Below, piece after piece: positions 2,320-9,545 of a DNA stretch of 11,110 nucleotides. The DNA is taken from the NCBI GenBank assembly GCA_018432645.1, contig JAHDSP010000349.1:1-11110 (forward strand). The letters are read 5' to 3'. The notes under the pieces were generated by a model. The model had not been told where the DNA came from. It made no database searches and saw nothing but the letters and a program-made list of their open reading frames with translations. Within the stretch, counting starts at the first letter, position 1; each line of letters begins with the position of its first letter. This DNA comes from Bacteroidales bacterium (GTDB taxonomy: Bacteria > Bacteroidota > Bacteroidia > Bacteroidales > DTU049). Both the position numbers and the translations under genes were made by a program.

Positions 2320-4740
2320 TTATACTAATACTTCTTTTAGTACATCAATCATATTTTCAACAAAAATAGGGTGTAATTTTTGAGTATAGTGTTTTTCTAT
2401 ATCATAGTAGTCTGCCATATTATCAGCAGGTAGGATAATATTAGTAATGCCCGCTCTCGAAGCAGCTAATATTTTTTCTTTAATACCACCTACAGGTAAT
2501 ACTTTTCCTCTAAGGGTTATTTCACCTGTCATAGCTATGTCATTACGCACAGGTTTATTTAGCAAAACACTTGCCATAGCTGTTAGCATAGTTACACCTG
2601 CAGAGGGCCCATCTTTGGGTATGGCACCTTCTGGCACATGAATATGTATGTTAAGTTTTTGATAAAAATCTTCTTCGATATTCAGCGCTTTAGCATTAGC
2701 CTTTATGAACTCGAAGGCTAAGGTAGCAGATTCTTTCATCACATCGCCCAGATTACCAGTCATAGATAATTTGCCATCACCTTTGTGAGTAGACGCTTCG
2801 ATGAAAAGGATTTCGCCGCCTACTGGTGTCCATGCTAATCCTAATACTACTCCTACCATTGGTTGAGTAAGTGCTTTTTCGCGTTTAAAAATTGGCACAC
2901 CTAGAATTTCTTTAATATCATTAACTGATAATGTAGTTTTTTTCAATTTACCATCTGTGAAATCTACGGCTTTATTACGAATAATTTTAGCTATGCGTTT
3001 CTCTAATGCTCTCACACCACTCTCACGAGTGTAATTATCGATAATTTCTTTTAAAGCATTTTCTGAAAATTTTAAACCTGATTTAGCCATTCCATTTTCT
3101 TCTAACTGCTTAGGCAATAAAAAACGTTTTGCTATTTCTAATTTTTCCTCGAGTACATATCCATGTAGTTCTATAATTTCCATTCTATCGAGTAGTGCAG
3201 GATTTATACTAGCAGTATTATTAGCAGTAGCGATAAACATTATTTTAGACAAGTCAAATTCTGTCTCTAGGTAATTATCATAAAAATGAGAATTCTGCTC
3301 TGGGTCGAGAACTTCTAATAATGCAGCTTGTGGGTCGCCTTGTATAGAAAGTGTGCCTACTTTGTCAATTTCATCTAGCATAAATACTGGATTAGATGAT
3401 TGCACTTTTCGCAAGCTTTGTATTATCCTGCCAGGCATAGCCCCTACATATGTTTTTCTATGACCCCTTATCTCTGCTTCATCATGCAACCCTCCAAGAG
3501 AAATACGAATATATTTACGCTCAAGGGCTCTAGCAATAGATTTTCCTAAAGAAGTTTTACCTACGCCAGGAGGGCCTACTAAACATAATATTGGTGAACG
3601 CATATTCCCATTCAACTTTGTAACAGCTAGAAATTCTATTATTCTATCTTTAACTTTTTCTAAACCAAAATGATCCTCATCTAGCACTTTGCGTGCCCTT
3701 TTTAGGTCATAATTATCTTTAGTATATTCATTCCAAGGCAAATCTACTAAAAGCTCCAGATAGTTTAGTTGTACAGAATATTCTGCTGCCGCAGGATTCA
3801 TGCGTTGTAGTTTTTTGAATTCTCTATCAAATAGTTCTGCTACTTCTTCTGGCCATTGTTTTTTTTGAGCTTTTTCATATAAATCTTTTAACTCTTGTTC
3901 ATTAGTAGATACTCCCAATTCATCTTGTATCGCTTTTAATTGAACATTTAGAAAATAGTCTTTTTGTTGTTTATCTATATCAGATTTTACTCTGTCCTCT
4001 ATTTTTTCTTTAATCTCTAAAATTTGAATATCACTAGCTAATTTTTCTAAAACGATATTTGCTATTTCTATAGGGTCATCACTTTCTAGAATTTTTTGTT
4101 TTTTTTCTATTGGTAGATTTAAGCTAGTAGAAATAAAATAGAGCAAATAAATAGAACTTTGAATGTTATCTATAGCCATACTAGCCTCATCAGGCACATT
4201 AGCAGATTGCTTGATAAGTTTTTTAGCATAATTTTTTATTAGTTCTATTGTAGCAGAAAATTCTTGATTATTTTCAGGTTCAATGATAGGTTTGATTTTT
4301 TGAACTTTAGCGATATGATATGGTTCAGTCGTTAATGGTTCTATTACTCTAAATCTATTACGACCTTGCAAAACCACCATTTTAGTATGATCTGGCATTT
4401 GTAATATTTTGATGATTTTGCCAACTGTACCGCACTCAAATAAATCATCGAAGTCTGGATCTTCTACATTAGCATCTTTTTGTGCAATTACACCAACTGT
4501 ATTTGTGGTTTTACTAACATCATTAATTAATTTTAAACTTTTATCTCTGCCAATAGTAATGGGCATTATACTACCAGGATACAAAACAGCATTACGTAAT
4601 GTAATTATTGGCAGCTCTTTAGGTACACGCTCGCTATTAATATGTTTCTCATCATCAGCGGATATCACTGGGAAAAAATCTTCTGCACCTTCACTCATAA
4701 AAAAAGCAATATTGTTCATTAATTCTCCAATTTCTGACAT
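2320..4740 (-). CDS. lon: Lon ATP-dependent protease (LonA type)
   Basis: This is a complete 806-residue cytosolic AAA+ protease that unfolds and degrades damaged and regulatory proteins. The N-terminal substrate-binding domain spans about 43-240, followed by a helical region about 240-340. The AAA+ module has Walker [10 protein letters not shown] (389-397), Walker [10 protein letters not shown] (452-460) and LLDRM (516-520) in the arginine-finger region. The protease domain carries the Ser-Lys dyad: S713 in DGPSAG and K756 in GGIKEK, 43 residues apart as in E. coli (S679/K722). The ATG at 4740 gives a normal N-terminus; Met8 and Met15 are alternatives. It follows gldG on the same strand but is separated from it by an inserted element. 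No clean TAnnTTTG box or heat-shock operator was found upstream, so its promoter is unresolved. Confidence 0.98.
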
Positions 4741-4826: not shown

Positions 4827-4834
4827 AATTTATT
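4827..4834. repeat. Left target-site duplication AATTTATT
   Basis: Eight bases directly abut the left terminal inverted repeat of the element at 4835-5066 and are repeated exactly at 5067-5074. The sequence is all A and T, so some chance of coincidence remains, but the exact abutment at both ends is what a target duplication predicts. Confidence 0.65.
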
Positions 4835-5066
4835 TGGTTCTATAACGTTTATTGAGAGTTAATTATTTTACCACAAAGGGCACTAATATATTACACCATG
4901 TTCACAAATTGCCATTTTTAAGTCTTTTAATTCTGTCATTCTCTGTGATCTTTGTGTCTTCTTTGAGAACTCTGTGGTTAATATTTAACTTTACAATAAT
5001 AAACAAAATTTATTTTTGTAAAATTACTTTTTTTAATATTTACTCATACAAACCGTTATAGAACCA
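4835..5066. mobile_element. 232-bp MITE-like non-autonomous insertion
   Basis: The element begins TGGTTCTATAACG (4835-4847) and ends with its exact inverse (5054-5066). It is bounded on both sides by AATTTATT, giving a 13-bp terminal inverted repeat with an 8-bp target duplication. Inside are CCACAAAG at 4871-4878 and, inverted to it, a TYTGTG array (cores near 4942, 4951, 4962, 4971) ending in TCTGTGGTTAA, so the body is itself partly foldback. It carries no convincing gene. It lies between gldG and lon, and the right duplication overlaps the gldG stop codon. A 20-bp end segment, 4835-4854, recurs inverted at 9526-9545. It was presumably moved by a transposase encoded elsewhere; the family is not one I can name. 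Confidence 0.7.
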
Positions 5067-5074
5067 AATTTATT
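5067..5074. repeat. Right target-site duplication AATTTATT
   Basis: This is an exact copy of 4827-4834, abutting the right terminal inverted repeat. It overlaps the gldG stop codon (TAA on the minus strand at 5073-5075). The insertion therefore landed at the end of gldG and re-created the terminal codons through the duplication. Confidence 0.65.
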
Positions 5075-6770
5075 ATTTATAATTACGCTTTCTGAAAAAA
5101 TAAATTATCACTCCAGCTATGCATACTAATAAAATAGGCAAAACTATATTTATAGTTCTAATAATTGCCAAGTTAATTTCTACTTTTCTTTTATCTAATA
5201 ATCTAATATTAATATCACGGTTTCTAATAGATATAATATCTGCTTCATCCAGTAAATAATTTACACAATTTAATAGAAATTCACGATTACCATACATTAT
5301 ACCAGTATATCTATCATAACCTAGTGGATAAGGTATGTATTTACCCTGACGAAAAACAACTTGATTTTTAGCAACATCACCATCTCCAACGATAATCATT
5401 CTATTAGGTTTGCTAATTTCCATGAAACCAATATCAGGATCTTGGGCTATGGTATCTGGGATTCTATCTTTATATAAGCTAGTAAAACTACCTTCTAATA
5501 ATACTGCCATTGGGATATTACTTCTATTAAAAAATGATCTATCTGCTTTAATACGTAAAAAATTAAGTGAAATAATAGATGGTGTATTTAAAAGGCGGGA
5601 ATAATTGCCAGAAGACAAAAGAATAGTTTTACGAATACCAGGTTTAGCAATAGTATCTATACTACTGGCGAATTCAAATTTGATATCATTAATATTTCTA
5701 ACTATTGGATGTCCTTTGATATTAGCAACTGTGGGGAAGAAATACCAATTAAATAATGAGAATTGTGGTTGATTACCTACTTGTCCAGTTTTGACAGGTA
5801 TCTGAGCACTATGATAATCCATCACCAGGTCTTTATTTACTCTTGCCCCATAATTAAATAGCATATCATCCAGATTTATATCATTAGGAATAGCTAAAAT
5901 ATCTGATTTAGATTGTAGACTATCCATATCTGCTAGAGCACCATCTAATAGCCAAAGTACTCTGCCACCTTTCATTATATATTGATCAATAATAAATTTA
6001 TCCATCTCATCAAAAGTGCTATCAGGAGCCGCAATGATGATAGCTTTGAACTCGTCTAAAGCTTTTAGTTGATGATTTATCGCTATCTGGTTAACAATAT
6101 AATAATCTTGTAAAGCTAATGCTAAGTCATTAATTTCTAAAGCATCTAATTCTCCGTGTCCTTTTATGAAAGCTATCTTAGCTTTTTTTTGTAATGTAAT
6201 GCGATGGATACCATCTATTAGCTTATATTCTGTATTTTCTATAGCATCATTTATTAAAAGCTCTTTAGAACCAGGAATATTTGAATAAATAAAATTAATG
6301 GGAAGTTCTCTGCCTTTATAAGTAACAATAGCACATGGCCATACTACATTTTCACTTGTGCCAGTTTCGCTAATTTCATAATCTATAGAAGGTACTAATC
6401 CTCTATATTCTAACTCTTTGAGATAATCACGTAATGTAGCTTCATCTTTGCCTTTTGCTGGATCTATCAGGTCATATTTAATCAACCTTTTGTTGTATGC
6501 TTTGAATTCATCAAGAGTTTCTATTATAGTTTTTTGTAATCTTTTATATGAGGGGGAAAGTTTACCATCTAAAAATACTTGAAAATATACATAATCATCG
6601 AGATTTTTTAGAATGTTTTTAGTAGCAGTAGAGAGAGAATATCTTTTTTCACTAGTGAGATCTATTCTGAAATATAAAAAACTAGCTATGATATTAATGG
6701 CTATTAAACCTAATATTACAATAACTAGATTCCATTTATTATTTTTGAAAATATTTTTTTTGTTTTTCAT
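5073..6770 (-). CDS. gldG: GldG, auxiliary subunit of the gliding-associated ABC exporter
   Basis: GldG works with the permease GldF and ATPase GldA as an ABC system needed for gliding in some flavobacteria; it is also kept in many non-gliding Bacteroidota. Numbering here is from the GTG at 6773. An N-terminal membrane segment spans about 15-35, a large extracytoplasmic ABC_transp_aux-type region about 40-535 includes FIKGHGE (202-208) and VGDGDVAKN (462-470), and a C-terminal membrane segment covers about 539-560 with a short basic tail RKRNYK. The ATG at 6770 is preferred to the GTG directly before it, giving 565 residues. It starts 35 bp after gldF ends, on the same strand and probably the same mRNA. 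Its stop codon lies in the target duplication of the adjacent element. No gldA is present in the window. Confidence 0.92.
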   Translation of the reverse strand: MKNKKNIFKNNKWNLVIVILGLIAINIIASFLYFRIDLTSEKRYSLSTATKNILKNLDDYVYFQVFLDGKLSPSYKRLQKTIIETLDEFKAYNKRLIKYDLIDPAKGKDEATLRDYLKELEYRGLVPSIDYEISETGTSENVVWPCAIVTYKGRELPINFIYSNIPGSKELLINDAIENTEYKLIDGIHRITLQKKAKIAFIKGHGELDALEINDLALALQDYYIVNQIAINHQLKALDEFKAIIIAAPDSTFDEMDKFIIDQYIMKGGRVLWLLDGALADMDSLQSKSDILAIPNDINLDDMLFNYGARVNKDLVMDYHSAQIPVKTGQVGNQPQFSLFNWYFFPTVANIKGHPIVRNINDIKFEFASSIDTIAKPGIRKTILLSSGNYSRLLNTPSIISLNFLRIKADRSFFNRSNIPMAVLLEGSFTSLYKDRIPDTIAQDPDIGFMEISKPNRMIIVGDGDVAKNQVVFRQGKYIPYPLGYDRYTGIMYGNREFLLNCVNYLLDEADIISIRNRDINIRLLDKRKVEINLAIIRTINIVLPILLVCIAGVIIYFFRKRNYK

Positions 6771-9168: not shown

Positions 9169-9189
9169 GAAAAAGCTTAGTTTTTTCAC
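9165..9189 (+). terminator. Possible terminator hairpin after yigZ
   Basis: Nine bases at 9165-9173 can pair with 9181-9189 around a 7-nt loop, with one G-U pair. The stem is mostly A-U and no U-run follows it, so it is weak as an intrinsic terminator. It lies about 90 nt beyond the yigZ stop. Confidence 0.3.
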
Positions 9190-9329
9190 TAATTAGCTTA
9201 TAAAAACTTTAATTTATCACTCAGCGCTCATTATTCCTAAACTTCTAAATTCCTCAAAACTAATTTATAATTTATGATTTATGATCATTTGTGGACAATA
9301 AATATCTAACCCGCAATTCCTATAATTTC

Positions 9330-9481
9330 ATCCACAGATTTACACAAATTAACACTGATAATTTAGTTTTTTGAATTGCATTTTTGAACTAACTTATTAC
9401 CTATTCCCTTTTACCTTATCAACTTCGTCTCCCCAGTCTCCCATCACTCTCATTTGTGTTCATTTGTGTGCATTTGTGGAT
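9330..9481. repeat. 26-bp imperfect inverted repeat with 100-bp loop
   Basis: The left arm 9330-9355 (ATCCACAGATTTACACAAAT...) and the right arm 9456-9481 match as inverted copies at 22 of 26 positions. The loop holds the inverted copy (9428-9442) of the G/A-rich tract. Arms of CACAGA/CACAAA facing TTTGTG/TTTGTGG resemble the interior of the element at 4835-5066. Confidence 0.65.
9451..9480. repeat. Three tandem 10-bp CATTTGTGnn units
   Basis: CATTTGTGTT, CATTTGTGTG and CATTTGTGGA follow each other without gaps. A further CATTTGTGGA occurs at 9286-9295. The 10-bp period places each TTTGTG core on the same helical face. Confidence 0.8.
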
Positions 9482-9525
9482 TAATAAAAACAATTGGGCA
9501 ATTATAACCCTTAATAATTTACCCA

Positions 9526-9545
9526 CAATAAACGTTATAGAACCA
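9526..9545. repeat. Second copy of the insertion-element terminus
   Basis: These 20 bases are the exact inverse of 4835-4854, including the 13-bp terminal repeat CGTTATAGAACCA (9533-9545). The orientation is that of a right end, with the TTTGTG array to its left as in the element between gldG and lon. No matching left end or target duplication was found upstream, so this copy is truncated or rearranged. Confidence 0.75.

Follow-up and report, generated by a model that had tools for sequence, protein, structure and literature searches.

The window, by which we mean the whole 11,110-nucleotide stretch that was analysed, contains between gldG and lon a real MITE with ISL3 ends and an unusual origin from a GxxExxY cassette. 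This miniature, non-autonomous element very probably descends from such a cassette and is moved in trans by an ISL3-family transposase. The inverted ends, the target duplications, the dispersed copies and the empty sites can be seen directly, as can the gene-bearing and intermediate versions and the likeness of the family's right end to the ISL3 end.

In the history that we propose, the ancestor would be a larger cassette of ~580 bp, with ISL3 ends around a GxxExxY gene (PF13366, PD-(D/E)XK-like) that was set between two inward-facing arrays of CACAAAG/CACAGAG iterons. An internal deletion would have taken out the gene, leaving the order ISL3 end, iterons, iterons, ISL3 end. The ISL3-family transposase, acting in trans, would move the resulting miniature element, which in the window would have inserted just past the stop codon of gldG, duplicating 8 bp of target.

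Structure of the element and its site behind gldG

The element is 232 bp in length (4835-5066). Its 13-bp inverted ends are TGGTTCTATAACG at 4835-4847 (plus strand) and the exact inverse at 5054-5066 (minus strand), and the 8-bp target duplication AATTTATT is present without mismatch at both 4827-4834 and 5067-5074. This arrangement is exactly the one that the sequence-only reading had placed between the two genes. The family consensus begins at GG (4836); in many family copies the duplication adjoins GGTTCTATAACG, and that of the window copy is displaced outward by one base, so that the outermost T/A pair of this copy may be element or target. The element is placed directly behind the gldG-like gene (PF09822; 5073..6773, minus strand), its upstream neighbour, and lon (identified by Pfam; 2320..4740, minus strand) follows downstream in the same direction. 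The right duplication shares two bases with the gldG stop codon (5073-5075), and gldG stays intact.

The body had also been described as gene-less and partly foldback, and this holds: an open reading frame scan found just two frames within the element, of 69 and 34 aa, each starting with TTG, and there is no reason to call either a gene. Folded as RNA, the element has a free energy of -57.1 kcal/mol compared to -33.2 kcal/mol for shuffled sequences (z -6.6), and its foldback as DNA has a z of -4.3. The self-folding spans nearly the whole length of the element.

The gldG loci of five same-genus genomes and six genomes of the family were compared with that of the window. The gldG-lon spacers of G002 and G001 (gldG identities of 96% and 95%, respectively) are without the element and each contain one AATAAATT, the reverse complement of AATTTATT. 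The window flanks plus one duplication align with both of these spacers, with nearby spacer length differing by ~18-24 bases. In G005 (gldG identity of 97%), a related 273-bp element occupies the same place in the same orientation, with AATAAATT at one flank and AAAAAATT at the opposite flank, each one base out. On its far side, this G005 element (L110, G005:C286) is flanked by sequence other than lon, suggesting that a rearrangement occurred there. The 400 bases read past gldG do not include the start of lon in G003 and G004, and these genomes are uninformative on the empty site. The simplest reading is that the insertion took place after the split from G002 and G001 and before or around the split from G005.

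Dispersed copies and ISL3-type ends

The assembly from which the window comes (G000) is fragmented, with 2.46 Mb in 572 contigs and 7.1% contamination. It contains at least 24 near-full-length copies including that of the window, each covering at least 200 of the 248 bases of the query (a lower bound, since scoring covered 40 of the 225 first-look candidates). Identity to the query is 70-89% for all of these except the window's own copy. At E values up to 10, the same query has at least 111 matches in G000, many of which are short or reflect the likeness of one end to the other. The genome (2.46 Mb) has 54 exact occurrences of the 13-mer end and 192 when up to two mismatches are allowed, compared to 96 for a reversed control. 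The family also has good matches in G001, G002, G004 and G005, and only weak ones in G003.

Inward-facing ends within ~1100 bp of each other were paired in 59 own-genome loci (part of the 192 end places was fetched, and repeats of the same place were mostly dropped). Thirty-five pairs were found, with lengths of 213-922 bp. An exact 8-bp duplication flanks 16 of the 35, compared to a mean of 0.87 and a maximum of 6 in 2000 shuffles of the right flanks; if one mismatch is permitted, the count is 18, compared to a mean of 3.9 and a maximum of 10. The other 19 pairs lack an exact duplication, and in 17 the mismatches number at least two. Those duplications that are exact are AT-rich, and most of them vary between copies. 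Copy number and shuffles together rule out a chance origin of the repeated ends.

A broken ISL3 copy is found at C427:840-1503 of G000: a PF01610 transposase match with stops (895-1376) is enclosed by family-type inverted ends at 840 (one mismatch) and 1503. Further PF01610 matches in this genome lie at the ends of contigs C310 and C352, beside an end with one mismatch. Contigs C140 and C310 stop 252 bp inside the IS left end. Because the C310 end starts with MNSKEIFSLALNIEKPW and then passes to sequence resembling, by eye, residues ~240-275 of a 409-aa ISL3 transposase (that of L152, described below), this piece looks internally deleted, and the ISL3 pieces of the genome in general likewise seem to be broken or to have internal deletions. 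In G004, four contigs run 60-143 bp into the IS left end before they stop, the pattern expected of a collapsed multi-copy element.

When ISL3 loci of the order were scanned for ends, an exact 8-bp repeat with similar ends was found at 5 of 16, four of which begin with GG. The closest of these to the window family is L152, an open ISL3 element from another genome of the order (1277 bp, ends GGTTCTAC, exact 8-bp duplication), whose 409-aa frame matches PF01610 with an E value of 1.7e-69. The window family has the same ISL3-type hallmark, an 8-bp duplication and ends beginning with GG, and a broken PF01610 transposase lies between ends like those of the window element. These features are shared with the ISL3-family transposon Tn7546, for which PMC9782665 gives GGGTCTTCGGA ends and the 8-bp duplication AAAATAAG. 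Unlike Tn7546, the window element is without a transposase. No PF01610 match at all was obtained in G001-G005, and because the six genus assemblies (G000-G005) yielded no intact ISL3 transposase, we can only infer that the ISL3 enzyme is the mobiliser of the window family.

Likeness to ISL3 continues past the inverted repeat. The right end of the miniature-family consensus, compared with the IS left end beyond the 12-bp repeat, scores 34.5, which none of 1000 shuffles reached (maximum 29.5; the shuffles in these end comparisons are of single letters and not dinucleotides, and are lenient), and the likeness runs through the transposase start codon. In the window copy, the putative ISL3-derived end is 4981..5066 (minus strand; limits approximate), as indicated by the family consensus score beyond the repeat; it resembles the ISL3 left end to the transposase start codon and slightly past. 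The consensus left end is more weakly similar to the IS right end (7 of 1000 such lenient shuffles as high). By the same lenient measure, the window copy alone shows weak similarity to the IS left end (16/1000), and its left end is not significantly similar to the IS right end (123/1000). By eye, the G004 copies resemble the IS right end more closely.

Among 197 genomes, the longer end pattern is found exactly in five genus genomes (not G003) and once in G172, which belongs to a distant genus of the order. The G172 element (L210 1718-2434, G172:C24) is 717 bp in length, with ISL3-type ends (one diverged), the duplication GAAAATTT and a body made up of a Y1 gene (IS200-like/RAYT-like) and GC-rich hairpins. 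In this genome, ends of this kind are found around a different selfish module.

The window element is short and lacks a transposase gene, has inverted ends and target duplications, belongs to a set of dispersed copies, and shares its ends with a transposase-bearing element (the broken ISL3 copy and pieces). The sequence-only reading had taken it for a small non-autonomous transposable element; the copies, duplications and empty sites support this identification. Dispersed copies with different 8-bp flanking duplications, which that reading had said to search for, are found in G000, an empty site with a single duplication in G002 and G001, and an insertion sequence sharing the terminal repeats in the form of C427:840-1503 and the end pieces at contig ends. 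The family, which had been left without a name, can be assigned from the sequence of its ends to ISL3.

GxxExxY cassettes and their iterons

A search with TIGR04256 (GxxExxY) gave five matches in four of the seven genomes searched. In G005 and G002, an intact GxxExxY gene (381 bp including the stop codon in G005) lies in a 579-bp element between the same kind of ends. These two elements occupy one shared site, with flanks that are 97% alike over 2.4 kb; a 7-bp repeat is present in G005 and no clean one in G002. The 922-bp element C56:1674-2595 of G000 also encloses a GxxExxY gene and has the duplication AATAATTT, and so combines the IS ends, non-transposase gene and target duplication of a mobile insertion cassette. 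The G003 match and the partial G002 match showed no such ends in the stretch fetched. The proteins of the 579-bp elements (A) and of the 922-bp element (B) match only PF13366, a PD-(D/E)XK-like family, with E values of 8.6e-39 and 2.4e-36, respectively; no solved structure matched GxxExxY by sequence at E values up to 1. As A and B are only 32% identical and both belong to PF13366, two different GxxExxY lineages are enclosed by the same kind of ends.

Twenty-two own-genome copies (up to 300 bp and alike enough to the window) were aligned with the gene-bearing elements. The 579-bp versions and the 257-287-bp intermediates align at both ends with the ~230-bp copies, and copies of 287, 273, 258 and 257 bp keep remnants of both gene ends. 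Nearly one common junction is found in 18 of the 22 copies (~213-243 bp, window copy included), so that the deletion probably preceded most of the spread. The C59 copy (277 bp) carries another insert. In the window, the left iteron array (CACAAAG, CACTAAT, CACAAAT; 4872..4909, plus strand) is the apparent remnant of the 3' flank of the cassette, and the right array (CACAGAG, CTCAAAG, CACAAAG, CACAGAG; 4941..4976, minus strand) that of the 5' flank. Between them, alignment with the 579-bp elements of G002 and G005 and with the 257-287-bp intermediates places the fusion point at which the gene was lost (4915..4940, limits approximate), where short remnants of sequence from both gene ends are kept. 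The window body thus appears to be a gutted GxxExxY cassette.

A second ISL3-ended, gene-less element, of subfamily B, is located at 9172..9544 (minus strand). Its inverted repeat at 9533-9544 is intact and its end near 9172 is truncated, the outer end having been lost beside a GGGGAGACTGGGGAGAT-rich stretch. Subfamily B has one gene-bearing copy in G000, the 922-bp element.

In Bacteroidota, GxxExxY genes frequently have short iterons on their flanks, and the iteron sequence tracks the clade of the protein. CACAAAG/CACAGAG repeats like those of the element's body are found beside GxxExxY genes elsewhere as well. Such flanking repeats yield spurious 'TTENTEHTE' peptides that are commonly annotated. 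GxxExxY is present in 82 of 149 genomes sampled of the order and in 50 of 99 of the phylum sample. At 30 loci of the order, the iteron pattern occurs upstream of the gene 1.90 (plus strand) and 1.40 (minus strand) times per 150 bp and downstream 1.20 and 2.30 times, compared to 0.28 per strand in control windows, with a degenerate motif that was chosen after part of these data had been seen. Visual inspection of these 30 loci and of four from the genus itself suggested that GPGLL proteins are accompanied by G-ending iterons and GxGFL proteins by T-ending iterons.

When these first 34 loci were scored, L-type proteins had G iterons at 19 loci, T at 2 and none at 4, and F-type proteins had T at 8 and none at 1. 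A test set was drawn from 80 further GxxExxY matches taken roughly by score (excluded were some matches close to contig ends, one containing a stop and one or more others) and scored with n=79, L266 having been dropped. L-type proteins in this set had G iterons at 26 loci, T at 8 and none at 8; F-type proteins had G at 0, T at 20 and none at 14; the single I-type had G and the two H-types T. These counts use a relaxed filter (113 of 114 loci scored); a stricter filter (99 of 114) gives the same direction. On a tree of the 113 proteins, whose short length leaves it poorly resolved, the 86 labelled rows need 4 label changes, compared to 28.6 when shuffled (0 of 500 shuffles as low). Ten L-type rows have T; five of these group together, and the other five are scattered over the tree. 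In 'none' groups hand-picked from the tree, different repeats seem to be present: a ATCCTGTTAA-like one in all 3 of one group, a TTGTCTGAATTAGGATT-like one in about half of the 11 of another and a CTTAATG-like one in 2 of the 4 of a third. L225, L248, L259, L260, L262 and L140 represent such groups, with iterons (ATGTAAATCCTG; TTGTCTGAATTAGGATT; CTTAATG) of neither type, and the code that links protein clade and repeat may extend beyond the two types tested.

Thirty loci were also scored outside the order, in other orders and other classes of Bacteroidota (L-type with G, 18; with T, 3; with none, 5; M-type with G, 1; I-type with G, 1; F-type with T, 1; with none, 1); there, 217 iterons lie in 12000 bases near the genes compared to 84 in 23600 control bases. 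Neighbouring iterons have a spacing of 8-11 bp in 194 of 279 pairs of the G type and in 171 of 271 of the T type. Arrays of the G type point towards the gene (89 to 35 upstream, 112 to 43 downstream), and those of the T type have little orientation preference. At L150, L220, L234 and L265, all from different genomes, DNA likeness ends by eye at the terminal iterons TTTCACGCAAAG...CTTTGCGTGAAA. At L141, the GxxExxY gene is located between tandem copies of an ~85-bp palindromic repeat with CACAAAT/CACAGAT-like iterons. Among GxxExxY units outside the genus that were inspected by eye, no consistent self-standing target duplications were found.

If gene and flanks are inherited together as a unit, this alone would make the repeats follow the protein clades. 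Recognition of the repeats by the protein is argued for because the repeats keep their form despite protein divergence (identity down to 32% among G-labelled proteins, median 50%, and down to 25% among T-labelled proteins, median 38%) and because label changes fall on few branches. These patterns suggest a nuclease/iteron unit of an undescribed kind, enclosed by ISL3 ends in the genus of the window. A tentative extension, which we consider possible but somewhat short of probable, is that the unit is a selfish element: the predicted PD-(D/E)XK nuclease would recognise its own 6-8-bp iterons, approximately one helical turn apart, and thereby favour copying or dispersal of the unit. Iteron pairs without a gene would be its non-autonomous debris, and the two lineages enclosed by ISL3 ends would have gained a second way to move. 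In those parts of the literature on GxxExxY, TIGR04256 and PF13366 that were accessible, almost nothing was found, and mobility is not the subject where GxxExxY is named. We found no literature linking MITEs, ISL3 and Bacteroidetes.

Alternative explanations and related systems

ISL3 is not the only family with 8-bp duplications: IS1595 and IS6 also produce them. IS1595 above all might mobilise the same element, as its transposase genes are abundant, many of them open (G000 has 45 matches and the five sister genomes have 15-33 apiece), and such a gene is enclosed in one 1543-bp G004 element that has these ends and is flanked by an exact 8-bp duplication. We consider this very unlikely, since GGTTCTATAACG is absent within two mismatches from 11 of the 12 IS1595 loci fetched, which led us to reject IS1595 as the mobiliser; at the twelfth, the gene lies between two miniature-element pieces and by eye looks nested. 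ISL3 pieces, unlike IS1595, are directly flanked by these ends. A simple scan of the 12 loci gave no convincing case of IS1595 ends with duplications, the nested one excepted. The 1543-bp element (L200 672-2214, G004:C51:19671-21213) has ISL3-type ends, the duplication AAAAAAAT and an open IS1595-type gene inside. IS1595-type genes in G000-G005 (e.g. L321-L332) number 15-45 per genome, and many are open and ~330-350 aa in length.

The spread might instead be driven by the iterons and the GxxExxY nuclease, with the ISL3 ends as passengers. GxxExxY units are indeed widespread in genomes without the long end pattern, and in at least one group the DNA resemblance extends no further than the terminal iterons. 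Nevertheless, the 8-bp duplications in the genus of the window sit at the ISL3 ends, and the same kind of ends encloses other bodies (the IS200-like gene of G172 and the IS1595 gene of G004), making this an improbable account. There is hardly any prospect that the stretch is an ordinary conserved gldG-lon spacer or a structural repeat with a local role, for example in transcript end or stability. A very stable foldback RNA between co-directional genes could fit such a role, but the element is multi-copy with target duplications, and the same spacer is found without it in G002 and G001; because of these empty sites we reject the ordinary-spacer reading. A local role may have been acquired later by an element that had arrived, as we favour, through ISL3 transposition in trans.

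RAYT systems with REP/REPIN sequences also have a small DNA-acting gene between short inverted repeats, together with dispersed gene-less repeat pairs, and the GxxExxY unit works like a RAYT gene in this respect. However, GxxExxY belongs to PF13366 and not to the Y1 transposases of PF01797, so that proteins A and B are not members of the RAYT family, and its repeats form arrays with 8-11-bp spacing and not REP hairpins. Bacterial MITEs such as those of Haloquadratum, as described in PMC3119063, are likewise short, with inverted ends, target duplications, many copies and ends in common with a transposon. The window family differs from that description in that its body is an apparent gutted gene cassette with iteron arrays and that its IS likeness passes the inverted repeat at one end. 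Compared with the mobile insertion cassettes (MICs) named in PMC3129680, the 579-bp and 922-bp relatives similarly consist of IS ends around a non-transposase gene, but this gene is a nuclease-like GxxExxY with its own iterons and is widespread outside such ends.

These results name a source for a repeat family that is spread through the genomes of one Bacteroidales genus, in which gene-bearing, intermediate and gutted versions are visible side by side. The pattern of clades and iterons is testable: given its clade, a GxxExxY protein is expected to bind or cut a particular DNA repeat.
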